Shown: positions 10,560-57,300 of the stretch, one piece after another
Layout: each line of letters opens with the position of its first letter
How positions within the stretch are numbered: position 1 is the stretch's first letter
Assembly (NCBI RefSeq): GCF_035046485.1
Contig: NC_085138.1
Span: forward strand, 10,637,823 to 10,701,822
DNA length: 64,000 nucleotides
Reading direction: 5' to 3'
DNA from: Aedes albopictus
Lineage: Eukaryota; Arthropoda; Insecta; Diptera; Culicidae
Translations under genes and position numbers: made by a program
The notes under the pieces: generated by a model
What the model saw: only the letters and a program-made list of their open reading frames with translations
Told to the model about the DNA's origin: nothing
The model's database searches: none

Positions 10560-13500
10560 AAACATCATGCTAAGAGCAAAATACCTCGGATTTCTTTACG
10601 AATACTTTCAAGGACACCTTCAGAAATTCCGTTAGGCATTTATTCAAGAACTTCTCCAGGGATTGTTTCACAAATTCCTCAAGGGACTTCTCAGAAGTTT
10701 CTTTTTCGTGAATTCCATGAGTATCTTGCAGTGTTCTAATAGTGATTGTTTTAGGGTTTGTTCCAAGAAATGCTTCTAGAATTCCTCCCACGATTCCTTC
10801 AGAAATTTTTACAGATACTTCTGCAAGAATGCATCAACGAATTACTCCAGGATTTTTTGCATAGATATCTTCAGTGATTCCTTCATCGATTGCTCCAGAG
10901 AATTTTTCAAGAATTTCTCCATGGGTTTCATCAGACATTTCTCCGTGAATTTTCCTGGGATAACTTTAGAGGTTCCTCCAGTGATTGTTCCAGTGTTTTT
11001 TTCGAGGATTCCTCCAGAAATTTCTCCATAGGATTCCCAAAGGAATGTCAACAGAAATTCTTTTAAGTATTTCTGCAAGTATTCTTTCAGAGATTTCTTC
11101 AGGAATTTCTCCATATATTCCTTCAAGAATTCCACTACAGATTGTACCAATAATTTAATCTGGAATAATTTCAGCAGCAATATCTTCCAGAAACCCTTAC
11201 AGGAAATTTTACCAGATATAAGCTAAAAATTAATCTAGGAGTTCCTTGAAGCATTGTAAAAAACATTATTTTGGGAGTCCATCCAAAGATTCCAACAATA
11301 ATTCGTCCAAAAATAATGGCAGACCTGGATTCCTTCATATTTTTATTTCCTACAGAAAATCTTCTAGGAATTTGTTAAGAATGCTTTCCTGGGATTTCCT
11401 AAGGAATTCCTCATGAGACTGATTCCGGGATTCAGTAAGTCCTGTAGGGATTCCTTCAGGAACTGCTACAGGGATTCCTCAAGGAGTTCCCTTCGCGAAC
11501 TCTTCTTAAAATTCCTTCAGAATTTCTCAAAGGATTTTATCTGCACTTTCTTCAGGAATTCTTTCTGGGATTCCTCCAAGAATTTCTCAAGGGATTCTTC
11601 GATGAATATCTTCAGAGATTCCCTCAGGAATTATTCCTCTGGAAATTGCTGCAAGGATTCCCCTAAAAATTCATCCAGGAATTCTTTCAGAAATGCCTCT
11701 AGAGATTCCTCCAGGAATTCTTCTAGATATTTCTCCAGGAGTATTTCTAGAGACTCCTTCGTTAATCCCTACAAGCATTCCTCTAGGATATCCTCCAGGG
11801 ATTCCTGCAAGAATTTCTGCAAGGCTTAACTCGGGAATTGCTTCTGTGATTCTTTCTGGAACAAATTATTTTAAAAATTCTTCCAAAGATTCTCCCAGGA
11901 ACTCTTTTTAAGATTTCTTTAGGAATTCCTCCTTGTATTCTTTAAGGATTTCTTCCAGGAATTAATTCAGCACTTCCTCCAGGAACTGTTTAGGGATTTC
12001 CTCTTGAAATTGCTTCCGGGGTTCCTTCTGGTGTTTCTCCAGGAACTCTTCTAAGGATTCCTCCAAAAATTCTATCTGCGATTTCTTCAGGAATTATTCC
12101 TGGTATTCTTCTACGAATTCCTTAAGAAATTTATCCACGATTTTTTGTTTTAAGAATTCCTGCAGGGATTTCTTCAAAAAATCCTCCAGGAATTCATCTA
12201 GACATTCCTCCAAAAATTCCGCCAGAAATTCCTCTAGAGATTTCTCCAGGAGTTCCTCTGGAAATTCCTTCAGGAATTCCTACAGGCATTTCTCTAGGAT
12301 ATATCTAGAATATCCACGGATCCCTCCAAGAATTTCTACAATTTTTTTTTCAGAGATTCCTCCAAGAAATCCTCCAAGGTTTTCTCAATGCATTCCTTCA
12401 TGAATTCCTCCAGTCATTCCTCCAGAGATGCCTTCAGAAATTGCTTCCGGAATTGTTCCTAGAATTCCTACAGAAATTTTTCCAGGAATTCTTTAAAGGA
12501 TTTCTTCAAGGATTGTTTCCAGAGACTCGTACAAGAATTCCTCTAAAGATTTCTACAGGAGTTACTTCAGAGAATCATCCAAGAATTCCATCAGGAATTC
12601 TCCTAGGCTTTGTTCCGAGAAATTTTCCAGGCATTCTTCCTGGGAATCCTCCTTGGATTCTTGCAGAGATTTCTCTAGGATTTTTTCAGCGATTCCTCCA
12701 GGAATTCCTCCAGATATTCCTCCAGGCATTGCTTCAGGGACTCCTGGGATTGCTTCAGGAATTCTTTTTGGTATTCCTCCAGAAATTCATGCAGGCATTC
12801 CCCCAGGAGTTAATCAAGGAGTTCCCTAATAAACTACGTCAGCAGTTCATCCAGGAATTTCACCAGGAAATTCTTCAGAGATCCCTTCAGAAATTCTTCC
12901 AGAATTTTCCTTTTGGAAATTTTCCAGGAATTCCTCCAAGAATTCTTCCAGATCTTCCTTCAGTAATTGCTGCAAGGATTCCTCAAAAATTCCTCCAGAA
13001 ACCTATTCAGGGATTTTACTAGGGATTTCTCCATGAATTTCTCCAATGATTCTCCAAGGATTCCTTCAGAAATTCCTTCGAGGGTTTCTCAAGAAATTCC
13101 TCCAGAAATTTCTCTAGAAATTCTTCCAGGAATTTTTTTGCGGATTTTTTTTCAGAAATTTCTTCCACAGTTCCTCTAGAAATTCCCCCAGAAATTTATT
13201 CAGTAATTGTTATAAGAATTCTTCCAGAATTCCAGAATTCCCAAAGGCATTCCTCCAAGATTTCATTCAGAAATTTCTCCAGCAACTCCTCCGGGAATTT
13301 CTCGAGGAATTACCCCAAGAATTTCTTCAGAAATTCCTCCAAGAATTTCTCTAGGAATTTATCCAGGAATTGCTCCTGCACATCCTTCTGAAATTATGTC
13401 AGCAATTTCTCCAGGATTTTCTTCAGAAAATTTTCTGGGGATTTTTTCAGAAATTGTTCCAGGAAATCTCCAAGAACATCCTCAGGAATTTTTCAGGGAT

Positions 13501-14596
13501 TCCTCCAGGCATTTCTTCAGGAATTTCTCCTGAGATTCCTTCATGAATTGCTTCAGGTATTCCTCCAGGGATTTCTTCACGAATTTTTTCAGGGATTTTC
13601 CCAGGGATTCCTCCAGGAAATCCTTCAAAGATTCCTACAGGAAATCCTCTAGGGATTTCTTCAGAAAATATTTCAGGAAATTCTCCTGGAATACCTTCAG
13701 AAAATTCCACCAGGAATTATTGGATTCCTCCAGCAATTCCCACAGGAATACTTCTAAGAATTTATCCGAAATTTCATCAAGGAATTTCTCCAGAAACTCC
13801 TCCAGGAATAACCCCAGGATTTTTTCAGGTATTCTTTCAAATATTTCTCCACGAATTGCTCCTAGATATCCTTCAGAAATTCCTCTGGAAATTCCTCCAG
13901 GTATTTCTTCAGGAATTTCTCCAGGAATAGCTTCAGGGATTCCTCCAGAAATTTCTTCAAAGATTTTCTCAAGGATTCCTCCAGGAAATCCTCCAGAAGT
14001 TTTTTCAAGGATTCTTCCAGGAAATCCTCTAGGAATACCTTCAGAAATTATTCCAGGAAATTCTCTAGGAATACCTTCAGTATTTTTTCAGGGATTTCTC
14101 CAGCTATTCCTCCAGGAATTTCTCCAGAGATTCCTCCAGGGATTTCTCCACAAATTTCTTCAAGGATTCCCCAGGGATTTTTCAGGAGTTCCTTCGAGGA
14201 TTTCTCAAGGTATTTTTTTTTTCAGAAATAGAAAAATAATAGAACTAGCAATCTCCTTGAAGTCGTCTGGAGATTTCTCTAAAAATTCATCCAGTAATTC
14301 TTTCAAGATTTCCTCTAGAGATTCCTCAAGCAATTCCCACAGGAATACCTCTACGAATTCCTCCAGGCATTCCTCCAAGCATTACTCCAGGATTTTATCT
14401 AGGAATATTTTCAGGAATTTCTCTTAAGCAATTCCTCCAGGAAATACCCCTGGAATTTCTTCAGGATTTGCTTCTGGACATCCTTCAGAAATTATATGAG
14501 CAATTCCTTCAAGAATTTCTCCAGGAAATCTTCTGGGGATTTCTTCAGAGATTCTTCCAGGAATTTCTCCAGGAATACTTTCATGAATTTTTCAGG
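10560..14596. repeat. Degenerate GGAATTCCTCCA array, left part
   Basis: Four kilobases of imperfect 12-15-bp units around ATTCCTCCAGGA with frequent GAATTC palindromes. Because most units are multiples of three, reading frames stay open for long distances: 294 codons at 13543-14427 (+) and 193 codons at 12441-13022 (+), with monotonous peptides such as IPPGIPSGI, FLQEFLQGF or SSRNSSRDS depending on frame. These are not supported as genes. The array resumes at 17215 directly after the LTR element. Confidence 0.88.
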
Positions 14597-14601
14597 GATT
14601 C
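14597..14601. repeat. Target-site duplication GATTC, left
   Basis: GATTC precedes the 5' LTR and recurs immediately after the 3' LTR at 17210-17214. The pair lies inside the GGGATTCCTCCAG repeat, so the unoccupied site can be read off the array itself. Confidence 0.9.
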
Positions 14602-14863
14602 TGTGTGGTATATGTCTGACAGTAAGCATCTCTCAGTGTGTTTAGAGTCTTATCCCCCAATATGTCAACAGACAACTGATAACGCATGCACATTCCCCAC
14701 CCAGGGTAACGCCCACGCTATCGAGTGACAGCTGCTGACGACATCACAGCAGGCCACGACTCTTCCTCTTTCTTTGGTCAGCGTTCGACCACGTCGGACG
14801 TGCAGTGTATCTGGTCGCTGCGCTGGGCGATTCTCATCGAGAACCATCAGCTAAATTCCCACA
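14602..14863 (+). repeat. 5' LTR of non-coding LTR retrotransposon
   Basis: The 262-bp LTR begins TGTGTGGTATATG and ends CTAAATTCCCACA (TG...CA). It is identical base for base, by eye, with the copy at 16948-17209, which indicates a recent insertion. A GTATATG sequence near the start and GCGCTGGGCG near the end may belong to its promoter region; this is not established. Confidence 0.93.
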
Positions 14864-14864
14864 A

Positions 14865-14880
14865 TGGCAATCCTGCCAGG
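14865..14880 (+). promoter_or_regulatory. Putative tRNA primer-binding site
   Basis: TGGCAATCCTGCCAGG begins two bases after the LTR end and starts with the TGG expected to pair with a tRNA CCA end. The matching tRNA was not identified. Confidence 0.6.
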
Positions 14881-15159
14881 CTTTATTGCGATTTTTTTGC
14901 AATAAACTCAAACATAGGTGAGAATCGCTCAGCCAGTTAAGTGAAATGAAAAGTGAAAATGATTGAAAAAGGCAGTATTGTGGTGAAGCGGCAGGTATAA
15001 GTTTCTTTTTTTCGTTCAAAATGTGCAAAGGGGTGTCACGTCGTTCACCGAATAGAAGTTTTGGATTGAAAAATATAGAAAAACGCGTCCCGAGGACCGT
15101 CCAAATGACCTGATTTTCCAGTATGCCATGCTCGGAGACGTGTCTCGAAGACCGTCGGA

Positions 15160-15905
15160 TAGGTTATGTACGATTTTCGGAATCGGAAGACGCGCCTCGA
15201 AGGCCGTCGAGAAATGAAAAAGAAAGACGCGCCTCGAAGGCCGTCGAGAAATGCAAAAAAGTGGCGCGCCTGGAAGGCCGTCGAGAAATGCGAAAAAGGG
15301 GCGCGCCTCGAAGGCCGTCGAGAAATGGAAAAGAGGGACGCGCCTCGAAGGCCGTCGAGAAATGCAACAAAGGGGCGCGCCTGGAAGGCCGTCGAGAAAT
15401 GCGAAAAAGGGACGCGCCTCGAAGGCCGTCGAGAAATGGAAAAGAGGGACGCGCCTCGAAGGCCGTCGAGAAATGCGAAAAAGGGGCGCGCCTCGAAGGC
15501 CGTCGAGAAATGGAAAAGAGGGACGCGCCTCGAAGGCCGTCGAGAAATACAAAAAAGGGACGCGCCTCGAAGGCCGCCGAGAAATGCAAAAATGGACGTG
15601 CCTGGAAGGCCGTCGAGAAATAGAAAAGAAAGATGCGCCTCGAAGGCCGTCGAGAAAAAATAAAAAGTTGCGCGCCTCGAAGGCCGTCGAGAAATGCAAA
15701 AAAGGGGCGCGCCTGGAAGGCCGTCGAGAAATGGAAAAGAAAGATGCGCCTCGGAGGCCGTCGAGAAAAGGAAAAGAGTGACGCGCCTCGAAGGCCGTCT
15801 AGAAATGAATAAGAATGACGCGCCCCGAATGCCGTCGAGAAATTTAAAAGAGGATCGGGGAAAGAGAAAGAGGGACGTGTCTTGAAGGCCGTCGAATTGA
15901 TTTTG
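15160..15905. repeat. 37-bp minisatellite inside the LTR element
   Basis: About 19 units of the form GCGCCTCGAAGGCCGTCGAG plus AAATGGAAAAGAGGGAC repeat at exactly 37 bp over most of the block: the GGCCGTCG word starts at 15202, 15239, 15276 and 15313. Units carry a GGCGCGCC or GACGCGCC palindrome. As 37 is one more than a multiple of three, every frame runs through all three phases of the unit, and none contains a stop. On the + strand the product is strongly basic (RRPSRN-KEGRASKAVEK). On the - strand it is hydrophobic/aromatic and open for 305 codons (15045-15962). Degenerate units flank it at 15061-15160 and 15905-16045. Confidence 0.93.
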
Positions 15906-16045
15906 AACTTCAAAATAGTGAATGAGGAACGTGTCTCGAAGAACGTCGTGTTTTAATAGCATGGTTTTGAAGAACCGGAAGTTGCACCGGGATGATCGTT
16001 ACAAACACATGTGTTGTATTTGCCTCGAAGGCCGCAGGCTTGGTT

Positions 16046-16931
16046 GACTTTGTTTTGGAATAATAAAAAAAGGAATCGACAGACACGTCGTCGAAATGTT
16101 TAGTGTACATTTTGCGAAGTGGGACGACGCTTCTAGGAAACTCGTGGAGAAATCTTTGGTTTGGGACTTAAAAAGCAAAAAGACAAATCTAATCGACTGG
16201 TAGATACATTCTTTGAAATTTGGACCATAGGCCGTGTTCGAATTCCAAAACCGTTACAATAGCACTCCGAACATGTTCAAGTTGGAGTTTTCATTCGTCA
16301 AGAATAAACTTCCTGAAGTACTTGTGTACGAATGATAATGGGCCAATGAGTCGTTTTGTGAAACAGAATTTGGACTGCACGGTACAGCAGTGATATCATT
16401 CGTCATCGCTCTGCTAGTAAGATGCGAATAGTTTGGCTCTATCATGAACTTGAAACTTAGTCATATGTTTGATCACTTAAATTGCGCAATGGACTAGGCA
16501 ATGGACTATTTTCTCTATCAACTATTGCAGAATGACGATGCTTTTAATGGATGACTTTATATTGTTCGTAAACCTCAAAGTGGGTTTAAACTTCTGGGTT
16601 TCAACGCCGAAGATCCGACGCAAGATCCGTTGACGAAGAAATAACTATGACAGCAGTCGCAGGGCAGTTGGTTATTCTGGTATTTGACCGCGGTTACCCG
16701 TTAGTTTTGTGAGTGCTGTCATGCAAATAGAGTATTTGCATTGTGCTATAAGTTAATGTTGACAGATTTCTTGGTATGTTAGTGAGGAATTTAAACATGT
16801 GCAGTATTGCGTAAACCTTCGTTGAAACGCTCATGTAATTCAACGAAGCAAAGAAAATTTTCAGTGAAAAAGGCAGTAATGCTTTACATTTGTGAAATCC
16901 CTCGGTAGGAGCATTTTTTCTCGTTTTTCTT
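16046..16931. other. LTR element interior, right part
   Basis: Non-coding sequence between the minisatellite and the polypurine tract. Short open frames here do not resemble Gag or Pol. Confidence 0.5.
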
Positions 16932-16947
16932 GAGGGAAGAAGGAGAA
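16932..16947 (+). promoter_or_regulatory. Polypurine tract
   Basis: GAGGGAAGAAGGAGAA ends exactly at the first base of the 3' LTR, the position of the plus-strand primer in LTR retroelements. Confidence 0.9.
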
Positions 16948-17209
16948 TGTGTGGTATATGTCTGACAGTAAGCATCTCTCAGTGTGTTTAGAGTCTTATC
17001 CCCCAATATGTCAACAGACAACTGATAACGCATGCACATTCCCCACCCAGGGTAACGCCCACGCTATCGAGTGACAGCTGCTGACGACATCACAGCAGGC
17101 CACGACTCTTCCTCTTTCTTTGGTCAGCGTTCGACCACGTCGGACGTGCAGTGTATCTGGTCGCTGCGCTGGGCGATTCTCATCGAGAACCATCAGCTAA
17201 ATTCCCACA
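16948..17209 (+). repeat. 3' LTR of non-coding LTR retrotransposon
   Basis: Identical to the 5' LTR at 14602-14863. The target duplication GATTC follows at 17210-17214. Confidence 0.93.
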
Positions 17210-17214
17210 GATTC

Positions 17215-18080
17215 CTCCAGACATTGTTCCAGGATTTTCTTCTGGAATTTCTCCAGGGATCCCCCCACGAATATTTCCAGGGATATTCCCAGAGATTCCT
17301 TCAGGGATTCCTTCAGGGATTCCTCTAGGGATTACTCCAGAAATTCCTCCAAGGGTTCTTCCAGGAAATCCTCCTGGAATTTCTCAAGGGATTATTTCAG
17401 AAATTTCTCCAGCAATTCCTCCCAGAATTCCTCTGGAGATTTCTTCAGGAATTCTTCCAGGAATTTCTCCAAGAATTGATCCAAGAAATTTCTCCAGGAA
17501 TTCCGGCTGGGTCTTATCCAAGTATTTCTCCAGGAATTACGCCCGGAATTTGTTCAGAAGTTTTTCCTAGCATTCCTCCAGGATTCTCGTTAGAAATTTT
17601 CCCAGTAGTTGCTTCAAGGATTACTCCAGAAATCCCTTCAGGGATTTCTCCAAGATTTCCCCTAAGGAATCCTCCAGAAATGTATGTAGAATTTCTTCAA
17701 GGATTTCGTCATGAGATCTATTTAGGAATTTGTCTAGGTGTTCCTCCCTTAATTTATACATGAATTCCTCCAGGTATACTTTCAAAAATTCTTCCAGGGA
17801 TTCCGCCGGGAATTCCTCCAGGGATTCTACGGGGCTTCCTCCAGGCATTCCTGTAGGAATTGCAACAGGGATTCATCCAGGTTTTTCTTCTGGGATTTCT
17901 CCAGGAAGTCTTCCAGGGATTTCTCCGGGAACTCCTCAAGTGATTTCTTCAGAAATTCCTCTCAGGTTCTCTTCAAAAATACATTCAGATGTTCCTTCGG
18001 AAATTTCAAAAATCCTTCAAGCATCTTTTCAGGGATGTACACAAGAACTTTTTCAGGATTACATGATGTTTTTTTAATTA
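17215..18080. repeat. Degenerate GGAATTCCTCCA array, right part
   Basis: Direct continuation of the array at 10560-14596 once the LTR element and one GATTC are removed. Units include TTCCTCCAGGGATTC and AATTTCTCCAGGAATT. Open frames across it are low-complexity. Confidence 0.85.
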
Positions 18081-20577: not shown

Positions 20578-22696
20578 AGCTCTAGCACGGTACGTCAAAT
20601 TGTTGACTTTGGTGAAAAAATACAACCGCCAGAATGCCACGATCGCGGACATCTTTGCCGAGTATGTTGCCAAGCAGCCGGAGAAGGCGTGCCTCATCTA
20701 CGAAGGCCGCGAGTGGACTTTCAAAGAGGTTTGGACTGCTTTGATGATGATTTATTTTCAGCGGTTACCTTGATTGAGCGTAATATATCTCACAGGTCAG
20801 TGACTACTCGAATCGAGTGGCGAACGTGTTCCACACCCACGGCTACAAGCGTGGAGATGTGGTAGGCTTGCTGCTGGAAAACCGTCCAGAGTTCGTGGCG
20901 ACTTGGTTGGGTCTTTCCAAGCTTGGTATCATCATTCCGCTGATCAACCACAACCTGCGGAAGAATGCCCTCTTGCACAGTGTCACCGTGGCCAAGTGCA
21001 GTGCGTTGATCTTCGGAGAATCGCTGCGTGACGCAGTATCGGAGATCACCGAATCGCTGCCATCCTCGTTGGCACTGTACCAGCTCAACGATGCGGTTCA
21101 GCAGACCGTCATCGGAAATGCGAAGGATTTGGCCACGCTGCTGCAGAACGCTTCCAAGGAACAGCCAACGGCAAACGTTATGAAACCCGATCATCACGAT
21201 CAGCTGCTGTACATCTACACTTCGGGAACCACTGGACTGCCGAAGGCGGCCGTCATCACTCATTCCAGGTTTGACAATTCTATACCAAATTGCATTATGC
21301 GGTAGACCCTTTAGAACCGTGTCCGTCCATAACTGGGGGTTCGCAATTTCAGATTCGTATTCATCACGGCAGCCATCCACATGGTGGCCGGTTTCCGAAA
21401 CGACGACATCTTCTACACTCCTCTACCGCTGTATCACACGGCTGGTGGCATGATGAGTGTTGGCCAAGCCCTCTTGTTTGGAGCGACCGTTGTCATCCGC
21501 AAGAAGTTCTCTGCCTCGCAATACTTCGCCGACTGCCAGAAATACAACTGCACGGTACATGATATAAATCTGATGGTGGTTGTGGTGTGGACTACAGTTA
21601 ACGAACGGATCATTTCCATCCACAGGTTGGTCAGTATATCGGCGAAATGTGCCGGTACATCTTGGCCACTCCGGGTTCTCCCACCGATAAGGCACACAAG
21701 GTTCGACTGATCTTCGGTAATGGGCTTCGTCCGCAAATTTGGCCGCAGTTTGTCGGTCGGTTCAACATTCCACGGGTCGCGGAGTTCTACGGAGCTACCG
21801 AAGGCAATGCCAATATTGGTGAGTAGTCCTTTCGTTAACTCGCTTATAGTGTCGACACAAACTTAACGGATCTTGCGTTCAACAGTCAACATCGACAACA
21901 CGGTCGGTGCCATCGGGTTCGTGTCCCGTATCATTCCGCAAGTGTACCCGATCTCGATCATCCGAGCAGATCCTGCCACCGGTGAACCCATTCGCGGTAA
22001 AAATGGTTTATGTCAGGTACTTGAAGTCGCCAATATCACAAAGTACATCCACTAACAGTTTCCCTATCCATTTCCCAGCTGTGCGAACCGAACGAGCCTG
22101 GGGTATTCATCGGCAAGATCCTGCCCAACAACCCGAGTCGGGCGTTCCTCGGATACGTGGACAAGGGCGCATCGGAGAAGAAGATCGTTCGCGATATCTT
22201 CAAAAAGGGCGACGCGGCTTTCTTGTCCGGAGATTTGCTGGTTGCCGATGAGCGGGGCAATCTGTTTTTCAAGGACCGAACGGGTGATACCTTCCGGTGG
22301 AAGGGAGAGAACGTCTCCACCAGTGAAGTGGAGGCCGAAGTCAGCAATGCCTCCGGCTACCGGGACACCGTCGTGTACGGTGTGGAAATTCCCCACATGG
22401 AAGGCCGTGCCGGAATGGCTGCGGTTCTGGACCCAGAACGGCAGGTTGATCTGGTGAAACTAGCCCAAACCCTCAAGGAAACCCTTCCATCGTACGCCAG
22501 ACCGATGTTTGTGCGATTACTCAGTACAGTGGACATGACAGGCACCTTCAAGCTGAAGAAAATCGATCTCCAAAAGGAAGGTTTCGATCCCAACGTGATC
22601 GAAGATGCCCTATACTACCTATCGCCAAAGGGAAGCTACGAAAGCCTCACCAAGGAAGTCTTCGACCAGATCAACCGAGGTGAAATTAGATTCTAA
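20578..22696 (+). CDS. Fatp: Long-chain fatty acid transport protein (acyl-CoA synthetase family), N-terminus missing
   Basis: Exons 20578-20728, 20796-21268, 21353-21554, 21626-21818, 21886-22016 and 22079-22696 join in phase across GT-AG introns of 62-84 bp and give 588 residues to the stop at 22694-22696. The AMP-binding signature [14 protein letters not shown] lies at 21210-21252 and the FATP/VLACS signature [17 protein letters not shown] at about 22284-22335; EFYGATEGN and LPLYHTAGG are also intact. The family activates long and very long fatty acids to CoA esters at membranes, coupling this to uptake. The first exon starts in mid-protein ([20 protein letters not shown]), so the N-terminal transmembrane exon lies further upstream, possibly outside the window. 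No frameshift was seen. The acceptor could be one AG later. Closest known relatives are FATP1/FATP4 types. Confidence 0.97.
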
Positions 22697-24270: not shown

Positions 24271-25620
24271 TTGAAGAATCTTTCAAGAATCTAGAGCAAC
24301 CTCCAGGAATATCAGCAAGAATTTTTCTAGGGAATATTTCAGAAATTGCTTCGGGGACTCTTTCAGAAAACCATCCACGGATTCCAGACATTCTTACAGC
24401 GATTTTTTTCAAGAAATACATTAATTTATCTAGGATTTCCTCCCCTAGAAATTACTACAGAGATTCCTTTGGAAATTAGTCATAAGATTTTCCTATCATA
24501 CTTTGGAGAAGTTTAAGTGTTTCTCTAGACATTCTTCCAGAAGAATTCCACCATGAATTCCTCTAAGAATTCCACCAGGAATTTCTCTCAGAACTCCGCC
24601 AGCAATTATTCCCGAAATTCCGCCAGTGTTTTATCCAGGGATTCCTCCAGAGATTTCTCCCGAGATTTCTCCAAAAATTCCACTCGAAAAATTCTTCAGG
24701 AACACATCTATAGAAACTTCTACAGGAAAACTTCCTCCCAGCATTCTCCAAGAATTCTTCTAGGACATCCTCCAGGAATTTCTCAAGGAATGCCACCAAG
24801 ATATCATCCAGGATTTTTTTTAGAAATTTCTTCAAGAATTTTTATAGGAGATCCTATAACAAACCCTTCAGAAATTCCTCCAGGAATTGCTCCACGAATT
24901 CCTGCAGGAATTCTTCCAAATACTCCTCCTAAAAATTCTCCAGGAAATTCTCCAGGTATTCTTCCAGGTATTTCTCCAGGGATTACTCCAGGGATTCCTC
25001 CAGGAATTCCTTCAGGAACTCCAGTAGGAATTGTTTCAGAAATTTTGCCAGGAATTCCTCCATGAATTCCTCTACGAATTCGTCCACAAATTCTCCTAGG
25101 ATATTTTCCAGAAATTCTTTCAGAAATTTCTCCAGGAATTCATCCAGGATTTTCAGCAGGACTTCCTCCAGAAATTGCACCAGGAATTCCTTCAGGAATT
25201 CCAACAGGAATTCCTCAAGGAGTTGCTCTAGGAATTCCTCCTGCAATTCTTCCAAGAATGCCTCTAGGAATTACTCCGGGAATTCCTTTGGGAATTCATC
25301 TAGGTATTCCTTCTTGAGTTGCTCTAGGAATTGTTTTAGGAATTCTTCTAGGAATTCTTCCAGGAATTTCGCCAGGATTTTTCCAGGATATCTTTCAGGA
25401 ATTTCTCAAGCAATTCTACCAGGAATAAATTCATGAATTTTGCCAGATATTCCACTTGAAATACCTTCAGGAAGTGTTCTAGAAATCCTTCCAGAAATTT
25501 CTCCAGAATTTTTTCCAGGAATTTCTCTGGAAAATCTTCCAGAAATTCCTTCATAAATTCCTCCAGGATTTACACCAGGATTTCCTCCAGGAATTTCTCC
25601 AGAGATTCATCCAGGGATTT
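24270..25620. repeat. Degenerate GGAATTCCTCCA array, second locus
   Basis: The same unit type as at 10560-18080 (TTCCTCCAGGAATTC and variants), with low-complexity open frames in several phases, for example 170 codons at 24553-25065. It directly follows a GC-rich array, so the two array types are physically linked. Confidence 0.85.
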
Positions 25621-34309: not shown

Positions 34310-35400
34310 GGGATGTTCTAGGTGTTCCAAACTGTCCTTTGGTGAAGTCCTTCAAATCTACAAGAATAATTTTATGTATTTTCGCCACAATTAATAGCAT
34401 TGCATAACCTACTGAGATCCGTAAAGCTCTTGACATCTACTATGTCATTTATAGACACTATAGGGATATTCCAGATCAGCCAAACTACCATGGAGTTCAG
34501 GACTTCAGGTCTACACTCGTAACAGTATCCATATCTGTTATACTGAAAAACGCTGCATAATCAACTGCAGTTACTGGAACAATCTGAAGTCTACTAGCTT
34601 ATTATAAACCTTTGGGACATCTAGGGTCGTCCAAACTGTTCTATAATAAAGTCCTTCAAATCTACAAGAACAACTATATGTGTTTTCACCATATATAATA
34701 GTATTGTACAATCTGCAGGGGTCCGCGGAGCTCTTGAAATCTCAAATGTCATTCAGAGACACTACAGGGATATTCCAGGTCAGCCAAACTACATTGGAGT
34801 TCAAGACTTCAGGTCTACACTCGTAACAACAGCTATATATGTTATACTGAGTAACATTGCATATTTATCCGTGGTAACTGAACCAATCTAAAGTCATTTT
34901 TTTTTATTATAACCCTTTGGGGCATTCAGATTCGTCCAAACTGTTCTATAATGAAGTCCTGTAAATCTACAAGAATAACTTTATGTGTTTTGCCATAAAT
35001 AATAATATTGCACAACCTACTGGAATTCGCGAAACTCTTGAAATCTCAAATGTCATTTAGAGACACTACAGGGATATTCCAGGTCAGCCAAACTACCTTG
35101 GAGTTCAGGTTTTCAGGTCTACACTCGTAACAGTATCCATATTTGTTATATTGAGTAACGCTGCATAATCAACCGCAGTTACTGCAGCAATCTGAAGTCT
35201 ACTTTTTTGTAATAAACCTTTGGGATTTTCACGGTCGTCCAAACTGTTCTATAATGAAGTCCTTCAAATCTTCAAGAAAAACTTCATTTGTTTTCACCAT
35301 AACAAATAGCATAGCATAATGTGCTGAGATCCATGAAGCTCTTGAAATCTTAAATGTCATTTAGAGACACTTGGGAATGTTCCTTCCAAGTCAGCCGAAC
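34310..35400 (-). repeat. 152-bp satellite, left arm (304-bp dimers)
   Basis: The word CCAAACT (last copy CCGAACT) starts at 34327, 34480, 34631, 34784, 34936, 35088, 35239 and 35395, spacing 151-156 bp. Alternate monomers form two diverged types (TCGTCCAAACTGTTCTATAA versus GTCAGCCAAACTACCWTGGA), so the true repeat is a dimer of about 304 bp. Confidence 0.9.
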
Positions 35401-36592
35401 TATCAGAAGACTTGCTGGGCATGATAGATTACAAATCGCAGCTTTGTATAATGAAAGCAGTTACCGATACACCCATAGACTTTAGCATCTAAACTCAAGA
35501 ACAGTTTGGATGACCAAGGATATCCCGACTGATCTGATACTGTTTATTGAACTTTCAGAAGATTTATTTCACATGATAGATTACAAATCGTAGCTTTGTG
35601 TAAAGAAAGAAATTTCCGTTACACCCGCAGACTTTAGGATTTAAACTCAAGAACAGTTTGGATGACCTAGGATACCTCGACTGATCTGATACTGTCTATA
35701 GAACTTGCAGAATACTGACTGGACATGATGGATTACAAACCGTAGCTTTGTATAATGAAAGAAGTTACCGTTACACCCGCAGACTTTAGGATCTAAACTC
35801 AAGAACAGTTTGGATGACCTAGGATATTCCTACTGATCTGATACTGTCTATTTACCTTTCAGAAGACTTGCTGGACATGATAGATTACAAATCACAGCTT
35901 TGTATAATGGAAGCAGTTACCGTTACACACATAAACTTTAGGATCTAAACTCAAGAACAGTTTGGATGACCTAGGATATCTCGACTTATCTGATACTATC
36001 TATTGAACTTTCAGAAGACTTACTGGGTATGATAGATTACAAATTGTAGCTTTGTATAATGAAAGCAGTTACCGTTACACCCATAGACTTAAGGATCTAA
36101 ACTCAAGGACAGTTTGGATGACCTAGGATATCTCGGCTGATCTGATACTGTCTATTGAACTCTCAGATGATTTACTAGACATGATAGATTACAACTCGTA
36201 GCTTTGTATAATGAAAGCAGTTACCGTTACCCCCATAGACTTTAGGATCTAAACTTAAGGACAGTTTGGATGACCTAGGATATCCCTACTGATATGATAT
36301 TGTCTATTTACCTTTCAGAAAACTTGCTGGACATGATGGATTACAAATCGTAGCTTTGTATAATGAAAGCTGTTATCGTTACACCGTAGACTTTAGGATC
36401 TAAACTCAAGAACAGTTTGGATGACCTAGGATACCCCGACTGATCTGATACTGTCTATTGAATTTTCAGAAGACTTACTGGACATGATAGATTACAAATC
36501 GTAGCTTTGCATAATGAAAGCATTTACCGTTACACCCATAGACTTAAGAATCTAAACTCAAGAATAGTTTGGATGACCTAGGATGTCCAGAA
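35401..36592 (+). repeat. 152-bp satellite, right arm (inverted monomers)
   Basis: ACAGTTTGGA (last copy ATAGTTTGGA) starts at 35501, 35653, 35805, 35957, 36109, 36261, 36412 and 36564, spacing 152 bp in six of seven intervals. Units include GATTACAAATCGTAGCTTTG, TAATGAAAGCAGTTACCGTT and GATGACCTAGGATATCTCGA. The reverse complement aligns with the left-arm monomers (GGATATCCTAGGTCATCCAA against GGATATTCCAGGTCAGCCAA). Confidence 0.92.
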
Positions 36593-54300: not shown

Positions 54301-57300
54301 CCTTTCAAAGGGATGAGATTGGGTAATTTTTCATACACTTGTAGTTTTAAGGAAAATTGAAGAACTTCAAAAAGTTTTTCATCATTTATGCATGCATTAT
54401 CAAAGATCACATTCCAGTGTGCGATGAACTTTTTCACGCAAAAAAGCAAAATTTATTGAATATTGAATGTGGAAATATGCGTTTTTGACCCATTCTCACC
54501 CCCCAACGACGGTATATTTGGTATAAGAAAATTTGTCGGAGTCCGACAGTTGTGTCTAGAAAATCCAATATGGTGGCCCAAATTCCAAGATGGCGGACTA
54601 AAATTTAACTTTTCCCTTCGGATCGGACCTGGTGTGATGGTTAGAACACTTGACTATCACGCCGAGGACCTGGGATAGAATCCCACTACCGACAAACTCA
54701 CAAAATGTGAGTTCTTCCTTCGGAAGGGAAGTAAAGGGTGAACTAGCCTAGGGCTAAAAATCTCGTTAATACAGATAAAAAAAAAGATTTTTTCTTCATT
54801 TGTCGTGACGTCCCAACTGGGACAAAATCTCTTTCTCGGCTTAGTGTTCTAAGAGCACATTCACAGTTATTCACTGAGAGCACAGACAAACAGACGTCTC
54901 ACTCTACTCACTTTCCATCGTTTCCGTTTTTACCAGACTCTTTAAACATTCTGTAGTTCACAAATCTCTCGTTCATGGCGCCCGCATCGTTTTTGCTCCT
55001 GTTTGACGTTTGCTCACTACCGCCATCTACTCAGAGTAGACATGCGAAACATAGCGTAATTAGCATTGGGCGGTTATACTTTTGTGACGATGATTTTAAT
55101 CGCACTTTGTTCCAAGTGATACGTCTGTTTGTCTGTGCTGAGAGCTTCCACTGCCTATGATTATTTTGCGTCTGTTTATCGTGTGGCAGGCACGAAAGTA
55201 CTCTTTGCCCAAGAAAGTCAACGAAAATTTCCAATTTGACGTTACTGAAGCTTCATCTATATGGGCCAAAAAATCCAAAATGGCGACCAAAATTAAAAAT
55301 GGCGGCTGTTTTATGTAAGTGTGAGCTTTAAAACTGTACAACATTACAAATAATGACCAGTAAGATGGTGTGGTGCAAAATCCAAGGTGGCGGACTTAAA
55401 TTCAAGATGGCGGCTGTTATATTGAGTTTTGAGATCCAAAGCTATGCAGTATGAGTATAGAGTTTAGGAAAGTTATTAAGAGTAAATAATAAATGTCAGA
55501 AATCCAATATGGCGATTCGAACTACAAGTGGGAGAACCAATGTCAAGATGGCGGTTGTTTCATCGATTCCTGAGCTCTAAACCTATGCAATATGGGTTTA
55601 TTTGGTATGTGAAAGACGTTTATAGCCCAGAAGAGGTAAAGTCCAATATGGCGGCCAACAATTCAACACGATTCAACTATTTCACGAAGCTAAGGCAATG
55701 TGGGTATATTTGGTATGGTTATGTCCGAAGTCTAAAAAATGGTAACCAGACATTCTGAGATGCCCATCACAAGTTCAAGATGGTAGTCTACAGCTCAACA
55801 TGGCGGCTGTTTGATGGAGTTTTGTGCTTTAAAACTATTCAATATGATTCTATTGGCATGGAGGTGATGCGCATATTTGGCGTGATTTTTCAAAAAAAAA
55901 AACCTCTACATGTTTATTAAAAAAAATATTAAACAACCGTGCCAAATAACTAAGAATCGGTTGAAAACTTCAAAAGTAAAATTATCTGTCTCATCTTTTT
56001 GAGACGTTTACGTCACTTCTAAATCTCACAATTTTTGGGGCAAAACACAATTGAAATCTGATATGTCCGGTAACTTCCGGAATGAAAATGTTTTTCTTGT
56101 AGTTCTTAAGTAGTAGTTGCTTTATTGGAAGCCAAAGTGCACAGTGCTTCTTCTAGTGTTTCTCCCCCTGAGCAAATCTTGCGGAGGCTTCTCTTCAAAG
56201 TATCCACAAATCTTTCAGCTAGTCCATTTGATTGCGGGTGATATGGAGCGATGCGAATGTGATGGATTCCTTGACTGGTGCAGAAAGTTTGAAATTCGTG
56301 ACTTGAAAATTGGGTTCCGTTGTCTGACACGAGTACCTCTGGAACACCGAATGTAGCGAAGGTTTGATTCAGTAATTTGATTGTTGCTCTTGATGTCGTT
56401 GACTTGGTTACATGAACTTCTGGCCACTTGGAGTAGGGATCTGCTATCACGAGGAAATAGACTCCATCCACTGGACCAGCGTAATCGATGTGAATCCTCG
56501 ACCAGGGTCTTGAAGGTACAGGCCAGGATTCCAATGTTGTCTTTGTAGGAGCCTTTCCTGCCGTTGCACACGGTGTACAGCGCTTGACGTAGTCCTCAAT
56601 TTCTTGATCGAGAGGTCCACGTACCGGCTGTACCACTTGTCAAAAGTAATTCCATTTTCCGGATCGAAAGAAAACTCACTGATGTTCGTAGCCAAGGCTT
56701 CTAGGGTTTGCTCCGGGTTACTGGGTGTTGGTTGCGCCAGCTTCTGTAGGAGTTCCGCCATCTGAAGTATTGCTTGCTGAAGGTCTGCCATTGCTTCGGG
56801 TTCTTGAAATCTCGTCGCCAAATTGATATGTCCGGTAACTTCCGGAATGAAAATGTTTTTCTTGTAGTTCTTAAGTAGTAGTTGCTTTATTGGAAGCCAA
56901 ACTTAGAATGAATCAACCAGTGCAGATTCCTCTGCTTATATAGTGGAGCAAAGGCTGCTATGATGATTAATTCGTGTTTAGAGTATTATTCAGTTGACGT
57001 GTAAATCCATTGATTGCTGTGATCCAACAAAATCAAAATCAGGTAGCTCACAGCACAGAAGAGCCAGTCAGGGTAATTTTTGCTTGCGCTGAAGTGACTG
57101 TGACTTGCGTCTAGATGTGAGTTACTCGGGTAATTTTAGATATATCGTAAAAATCATAATTAATACTAGTGATCATGAAAAATCCAAAGTCGAAAATTGA
57201 TAATATGCTTGCAATTCAAAACATACGGAAATACTTCATTTTCAAAATATTTCCGATCTTCAACTGGAAAACCTTGAACAAACCTCCAAGTAGTACTACT

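Follow-up and report, generated by a model that had tools for sequence, protein, structure and literature searches.

A non-coding LTR retrotransposon family of Aedes albopictus with tandem arrays of a predicted RNA hairpin

An element of 2608 bp, found in a stretch of 64,000 nucleotides of the Aedes albopictus genome (contig NC_085138.1; this whole stretch is called the window), belongs to a family of non-coding, non-autonomous LTR retrotransposons that is present in many copies and carries a tandem array between its LTRs. The conserved part of the array unit is an inverted repeat, and the view that it is kept as a base-paired hairpin in the sense RNA is supported but not proven by the comparison of its copies.

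Anatomy of the element and its family

The features that define an LTR retrotransposon, i.e. direct LTRs with TG..CA ends, a short target duplication, a primer binding site (PBS) and a polypurine tract (PPT), are all present in the window element (Table 1). Sequence comparison of the two LTRs (14602-14863 and 16948-17209), which begin with TG and end with CA, found them identical at 262 of 262 positions, and joining the flanks with a single GATTC restored a 12-bp minisatellite tract of the host. The PBS differs at one position in 16 from the complement of what we take to be the 3' end of tRNA-Arg(ACG), and inverted repeats comparable to the one next to it lie 3' of the PBS in the sister families L068, L070 and L071. 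Tandem Repeats Finder assigned the array (15189-15853) a period of 37, 18.0 copies and 85% matches. Each unit starts with a conserved stretch of 20 nt that can be folded as GACG-c-GCCT-CGA-AGGC-CGTC, or with a variant of it, and this core is predicted to form a hairpin. A first-pass annotation of the same DNA had described an intact, recent, non-coding LTR element with identical 262-bp LTRs, a GATTC duplication, an abutting PPT, a primer-site-like sequence and a 37-bp minisatellite of about 19 units, and this anatomy was borne out, with 18 units in the array.

Table 1. Features of the window element and its flanks (window coordinates)
Feature	Position	Strand	Remark
Target duplication, copy 1, GATTC	14597..14601	+	abuts 5' LTR
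5' LTR, 262 bp, TG..CA	14602..14863	+	40 scored genome matches of 97-100%
Primer binding site (PBS) TGGCAATCCTGCCAGG	14865..14880	+	one base past 5' LTR
Short inverted repeat TTTATTGC..GCAATAAA	14882..14906	+	directly 3' of PBS; by reading
Anchor copy 1 of hairpin core, degenerate	15082..15101	+	
Anchor copy 2 of hairpin core, degenerate	15137..15156	+	
Tandem array, 18 units of 37 bp (one of 36)	15189..15853	+	Tandem Repeats Finder
Degenerate core copy 3' of array	15874..15893	+	
Degenerate core copy 3' of array	15928..15947	+	6/8 pairs
3' internal region, non-repetitive, non-coding	15970..16947	+	
Polypurine tract (PPT) GAGGGAAGAAGGAGAA	16932..16947	+	abuts 3' LTR
3' LTR	16948..17209	+	identical copy of 5' LTR
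Target duplication, copy 2, GATTC	17210..17214	+	abuts 3' LTR

The insertion target of the element was a long, degenerate 12/24-bp minisatellite of the ATTCCTCCAGGA type (12154-14590 and 17211-17966), and a minisatellite of the same type is also found at 24865-25619. Elsewhere in the window two tandem arrays with units of 304 bp and 152 bp adjoin (34326-36588), a minus-strand ORF at 56106-56636 resembles, by eye, a fragment of a retrotransposon integrase, and plus-strand ORFs at 20817-22696 look like an AMP-binding acyl-CoA synthetase (motif recognised by eye). The 64-kb window contains no further copies of the LTR.

The family was searched for in its own genome (1.344 Gb in 1494 contigs, three of them large). 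Of 402 candidate LTR matches 40 were scored, all being full length and 97-100% identical: 28 belong to 18 array-bearing elements, and the other 12 stand alone as solo LTRs, with a 5-bp duplication at 11 of them. LTR, 5' internal region, array and 3' region were all present at 19 of the first 20 loci. The remaining locus, L039, was retrieved without its 5' part, and the array search placed array sequence upstream of it. Matching 5-bp target duplications flank 19 of 23 elements, and the LTR pair is identical at 262 of 262 positions in nine of the 23 (this set omits L035 and L036, whose LTRs are truncated). The length of the element ranges from 2338 to 4754 bp (20 elements), and for the 3' internal region 80 matches of 69-100% were reported in the genome. 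An array of the same kind is present in all 28 elements whose leader was read, and the position of anchor copy 1 relative to the LTR is constant in most of them. Five divergent copies (L047-L051), with LTRs at 88-91% and a 3' region mostly at 69-75%, have near-identical LTR pairs of their own and have retained the array; of the 111 cores in these copies 63 (57%) match the window-type core at 19 or all 20 positions. The first-pass annotation had allowed that the minisatellite might be only a private insertion, or that the element might have no second genomic copy. Both possibilities fail because the array is a shared trait of a multi-copy family, with 18 array-bearing elements already among the 40 scored LTR matches. 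It had also proposed to look for elements with the same LTR and different numbers of units; this was done, and in 25 elements the main array has between 7 and 51 units.

Reading frames across the array

The majority unit is free of stop trinucleotides on both strands, and all ORFs of at least 150 aa within the element lie on the array, one of 305 aa on the minus strand and three of 165, 166 and 176 aa on the plus strand. The first-pass annotation had already reported these ORFs. Its statement that all phases are stop-free on both strands holds for the majority unit and fails for the real array, which has 9 stop trinucleotides on the plus strand, against a mean of 7.2 (95% range 3-11) in neutral simulations, and 2 on the minus strand, against a mean of 4.9 (range 1-9). 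When the unit was shuffled 5000 times with its dinucleotides preserved, 48% of the shuffles were likewise free of stops on both strands, so the openness of the array is not evidence of coding.

It had further been argued that, 37 being 1 mod 3, each frame cycles through all three phases of the unit. This regularity is not kept in the family: among 421 unit spacings from 25 elements there were 138 of 36 bp, 202 of 37 bp and 81 others, with a span of 29-46 bp, and the three mod 3 classes hold 208, 158 and 55 of them. Frames open across the whole main array were found in 14 of 69 cases on the plus strand and in 25 of 69 on the minus strand (23 elements), the longest open minus frame having 610 codons (L037). 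In L047 each of the six frames contains 3-6 stops. Database matches of the 305-aa minus ORF were P0001 (46% over 68%) and P0002 (57% over 22%), both distant. All that these matches show is the existence of related arrays elsewhere, translated in silico. In P0002 a related repeat, read in antisense fashion, comes after a Pfam PF14223 domain; such an element may have inserted into a copia-like gene.

The idea that the array encodes a highly basic repeat protein, or an antisense protein, can thus appeal to the long ORFs, to the two database matches, in silico translations as they are, and to the minus frames that are open in about a third of the cases. It is already contradicted by the chance-level openness of shuffled units, the undepleted plus-strand stops, the variable spacing and the closed frames, with L047 closed in all six, and we rejected it as barely credible. 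The 37-residue basic super-repeat protein proposed earlier has to be given up as well: the openness is a matter of composition, the spacing varies and most frames in the family are closed.

Base pairing in the repeat unit

The core of the unit is strongly conserved, and the linker is variable. Sixteen of the 22 core copies in the window can form all eight pairs of the hairpin and 20 can form seven or more, the other two forming six; in the family all eight pairs are possible in 502 of 655 copies. When no structure was assumed, the stem columns (7,15), (9,13) and (3,18) came first, second and fifth of 190 column pairs by corrected mutual information among 127 distinct cores with up to 6 mismatches; in the set of 159 distinct cores, with up to 8 mismatches, they dropped to ranks 2, 8 and 18. 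Cells with a two-sided change numbered 40, compared to a mean of 16 and a maximum of 26 in shuffles and to 5-21 in slid structures. The number of stem pairs with a two-sided change, 6, was not in excess of the shuffles (mean 4.9, maximum 8), and a separate run of this test gave 112 of 500 shuffles. Two-sided changes lead to T-A at (7,15) in 82 copies from 28 elements, to T-A at (3,18) in 19 copies and to C-G at (9,13) in 18 copies. The independent covariation events are few, because the copies are related and the 82 changed copies at (7,15) sit largely at two homologous anchor positions.

Mismatch types provide a second line of evidence. In the seven inner pairs G-U was found in 352 copies and A-C in 45, or in 80 and 29 distinct cores. 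Without pair (2,19) the numbers were 83 and 23 copies, or 44 and 19 distinct cores (p = 0.002), and with the end pair included there were 89 and 51 distinct cores. Since strand-symmetric mutation would give equal numbers, the excess of G-U over A-C points to pairing in the sense RNA.

Folding energies were less telling. The z value of the local fold energy was -2.3 for the window array, -3.3 for L047, -3.0 for L050 and -0.4 for L037, and control arrays of the window gave +3.0 to -2.4 on the plus strand and down to -3.2 on the minus strand; the window array lies inside this range. Single units had z values between -1.7 and +1.3, and a 911-nt fold had a z value of -4.65 (20 shuffles). RNAalifold preferred a slightly different register of the lower stem, and column shuffles were as low in 3 of 200 cases for the whole set and in 26 of 200 for the divergent copies alone. 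An alternative hairpin, CTCGA..TCGAG, was considered and rejected: it shows no two-sided change in the window, and among 202 distinct copies it has 76.7% of its cells paired, compared to 92.5% for the chosen hairpin. No known RNA family was found in the window at gathering scores, the unit core had no match in public viral and prokaryote collections and a stretch of the LTR had none in the public viral collection.

As everything needed in cis is complete, nothing needed in trans is encoded and many copies have identical LTRs, we infer that the element was recently moved by proteins of others. The reading that we tentatively prefer, giving it somewhat less than an even chance, is that of a non-autonomous element mobilised in trans, whose repeated RNA hairpins help the capture of its RNA. 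The LTR would drive transcription of the element, tRNA-Arg would prime reverse transcription, and the proteins of another LTR retrotransposon would carry out reverse transcription and integration. The hairpin array of the genomic RNA may multiply a site recognised during Gag capture or RNA dimerisation, and this could enable a gene-less RNA to compete for the proteins of the other element, and the number of units would rise and fall through slippage or template switching. For a paired motif that is repeated in such an RNA, a role as signal in capture or dimerisation appears to us the best interpretation.

It is quite possible, and nearly as likely as a capture signal, that the array is a passive minisatellite, which arose by slippage and template switching promoted by the inverted repeats, and that the hairpin has no selected function. 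The wide variation of unit number (7-51) and spacing (29-46) and a fold energy that is unexceptional beside the control arrays are what such an origin would predict, and the similarity of cores across subfamilies could be maintained by exchange between co-packaged RNAs. Passive amplification does not lead one to expect the excess of G-U over A-C, nor stem columns that top the covariation ranking of distinct cores (up to 6 mismatches) without an assumed structure, nor two anchor copies outside the array that hold their position and mostly their pairing.

Conservation of the core next to a variable linker would also suit a row of protein binding sites in the DNA, acting as insulator or enhancer like the 5' UTR repeats of Drosophila gypsy, a precedent cited in the available part of PMC3286476. 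We consider this distinctly unlikely: the strand asymmetry of G-U and A-C and the two-sided drift of the stem agree more with pairing in RNA than with a fixed site in DNA, and the Su(Hw) motif is absent from the unit by reading. Mosquito repeats give rise to small RNAs, and on this general ground the repeated hairpins could be targets or decoys that supply the piRNA or siRNA pathway, which we think quite improbable.

Primer-site relatives, possible partners and known systems

The LTR-PBS junction occurs at 84 places of the genome at up to two mismatches and the perfect PBS TGGCGATCCTGCCAGG at 372, the control being 0 in both searches. At twelve junction sites the sequence was read to about 0.85 kb past the PBS, and none of them had the 37-bp core. 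Two, L068 and L070, have another array, of period 96-100, with a strong fold (z = -7.0 and -5.6); for the two together 0 of 100 column shuffles were as low, and three pairs show two-sided changes, which supports the hairpin reading. At three of the twelve sites (L072-L074) the reading was extended. All three possess a second LTR, identical to the first along 242-263 bp (100%), their ORFs do not exceed 332 aa, and a repeat built around CGGGATGACC is present. In 54 copies of this repeat one stem pair is A-T in 24, G-C in 22 and T-A in one, and no other of the 276 column pairs ranks above it; RNAalifold found no structure in the repeat, and its fold energy is ordinary. Repeats of the CGGGATGACC type, with unit lengths of 35 to 98 bp, were seen in L072, L073, L074, L077 and L079, as if they were shared or exchanged between families. 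At another site, L085, positions 1498-1533 are complementary to approximately the whole 3' part of tRNA-Arg including CCA, which is more than a PBS needs; ARAGORN found no tRNA gene in this stretch.

Ten more perfect-PBS sites were picked by hand at rough steps along contig C1, on the plus strand only. Six of them have tandem arrays with at least four copies (L077, L078, L079, L081, L083 and L084), L080 is a coding Ty3/gypsy element with a perfect PBS, L082 is transposase-like by eye, and L075 and L076 have no such array within 2.6 kb. For the 79-bp arrays the fold is better than that of shuffles (z about -4), and the alignment supports only one of their two hairpins (4 of 200 shuffles); RNAalifold gave no structure for the CGGGA-type repeat, for L079 and for one 79-bp hairpin. 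Across these families the array lies about 0.2 to 3.1 kb from the PBS, and in some sister elements, where it is 1.4-3.1 kb past the PBS, it is outside the leader, which counts against the preferred reading. The arrays thus differ between LTR families that have a tRNA-Arg-like primer site, and only some of them fold clearly. Passive amplification gains from the fact that a CGGGA-type repeat is common to five loci with differing elements.

No autonomous partner was found among the candidates examined, which also counts against the preferred reading. In the coding element L080, which has the perfect PBS, none of four array motifs was found, and among the 150 candidates for Peptidase_A17 (BEL/Pao) that were scored, of 4732, none on C1 was seen by eye within 60 kb of any of the perfect PBS places listed (100 of 372). 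Under a wider form of the capture hypothesis, a guild of unrelated gene-less LTR elements with a common tRNA-Arg primer site would each have amplified an RNA-hairpin array of its own as a multiplied encapsidation or dimerisation signal, and such RNA parasites would outcompete the elements that donate the proteins. Several of the hairpins have GGA, CGA or CGG in the loop. We regard this guild as a speculative proposal that is, on balance, unlikely to be right.

Large genomes often harbour gene-less LTR elements for which no partner is visible. Should the arrays be multiplied RNA signals, they would offer a direct handle on the capture of such RNA, in the form of a short, repeated motif whose removal or scrambling should alter mobility.

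It is instructive to compare the family with elements described before. The first-pass annotation knew of no family like this one. In Culex quinquefasciatus, according to the available part of Marsano et al. 2012 (PMC3286476), there are 38 non-coding LTR families (cqUNK) with tandem repeats between the LTRs. As described there, they are 1.6-14.6 kb in size, have LTR pairs more than 98% identical, a PBS, a PPT and mostly 5-bp duplications, and no master copy of them was found; the primer is tRNA-Arg in 11 of the 38 families and tRNA-Ser also in 11. The likeness to our family extends to the non-coding, LTR-bracketed repeats, the nearly identical LTRs with adjoining PBS and PPT and the missing partner or master copy, and it is a match by published description. 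The same part of the paper reports that the cqUNK repeats are not family-specific and leaves their function open, and it nowhere mentions hairpin, stem or packaging for them. That repeats are common to several Culex families again favours passive amplification. If the capture-signal reading is true, it would explain why such elements carry tandem repeats, the question left open in that portion of PMC3286476. Our family goes beyond the cqUNK description in that its divergent subfamilies, and the other families with the same primer site, bear on the nature of the repeats.

The available text of PMC3286476 also describes Ty3/gypsy elements of the Mag lineage in Culex (cqgypsy_24, _25 and _66), which are coding and have tandem repeats in the 5' UTR; the PBS of cqgypsy_25 is for tRNA-Arg. 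Like our family they have repeats downstream of the PBS, there between PBS and genes, and unlike it they encode proteins. Elements of this type are candidate partners. TRIM elements, as far as they are described in the available part of PMC3532108, are likewise non-coding, with short LTRs, PBS, PPT and an unknown partner, but they are shorter than 1000 bp, whereas our family measures about 2.3-4.8 kb and has an array in addition. LARD elements share the non-coding internal domain of kilobase size, but their LTRs are typically about 4.4 kb according to the same source, compared to 262 bp here. The window element is therefore of a kind already described in Culex, to which this work adds the structure of a family in the Aedes albopictus genome and evidence for RNA pairing in its repeats.
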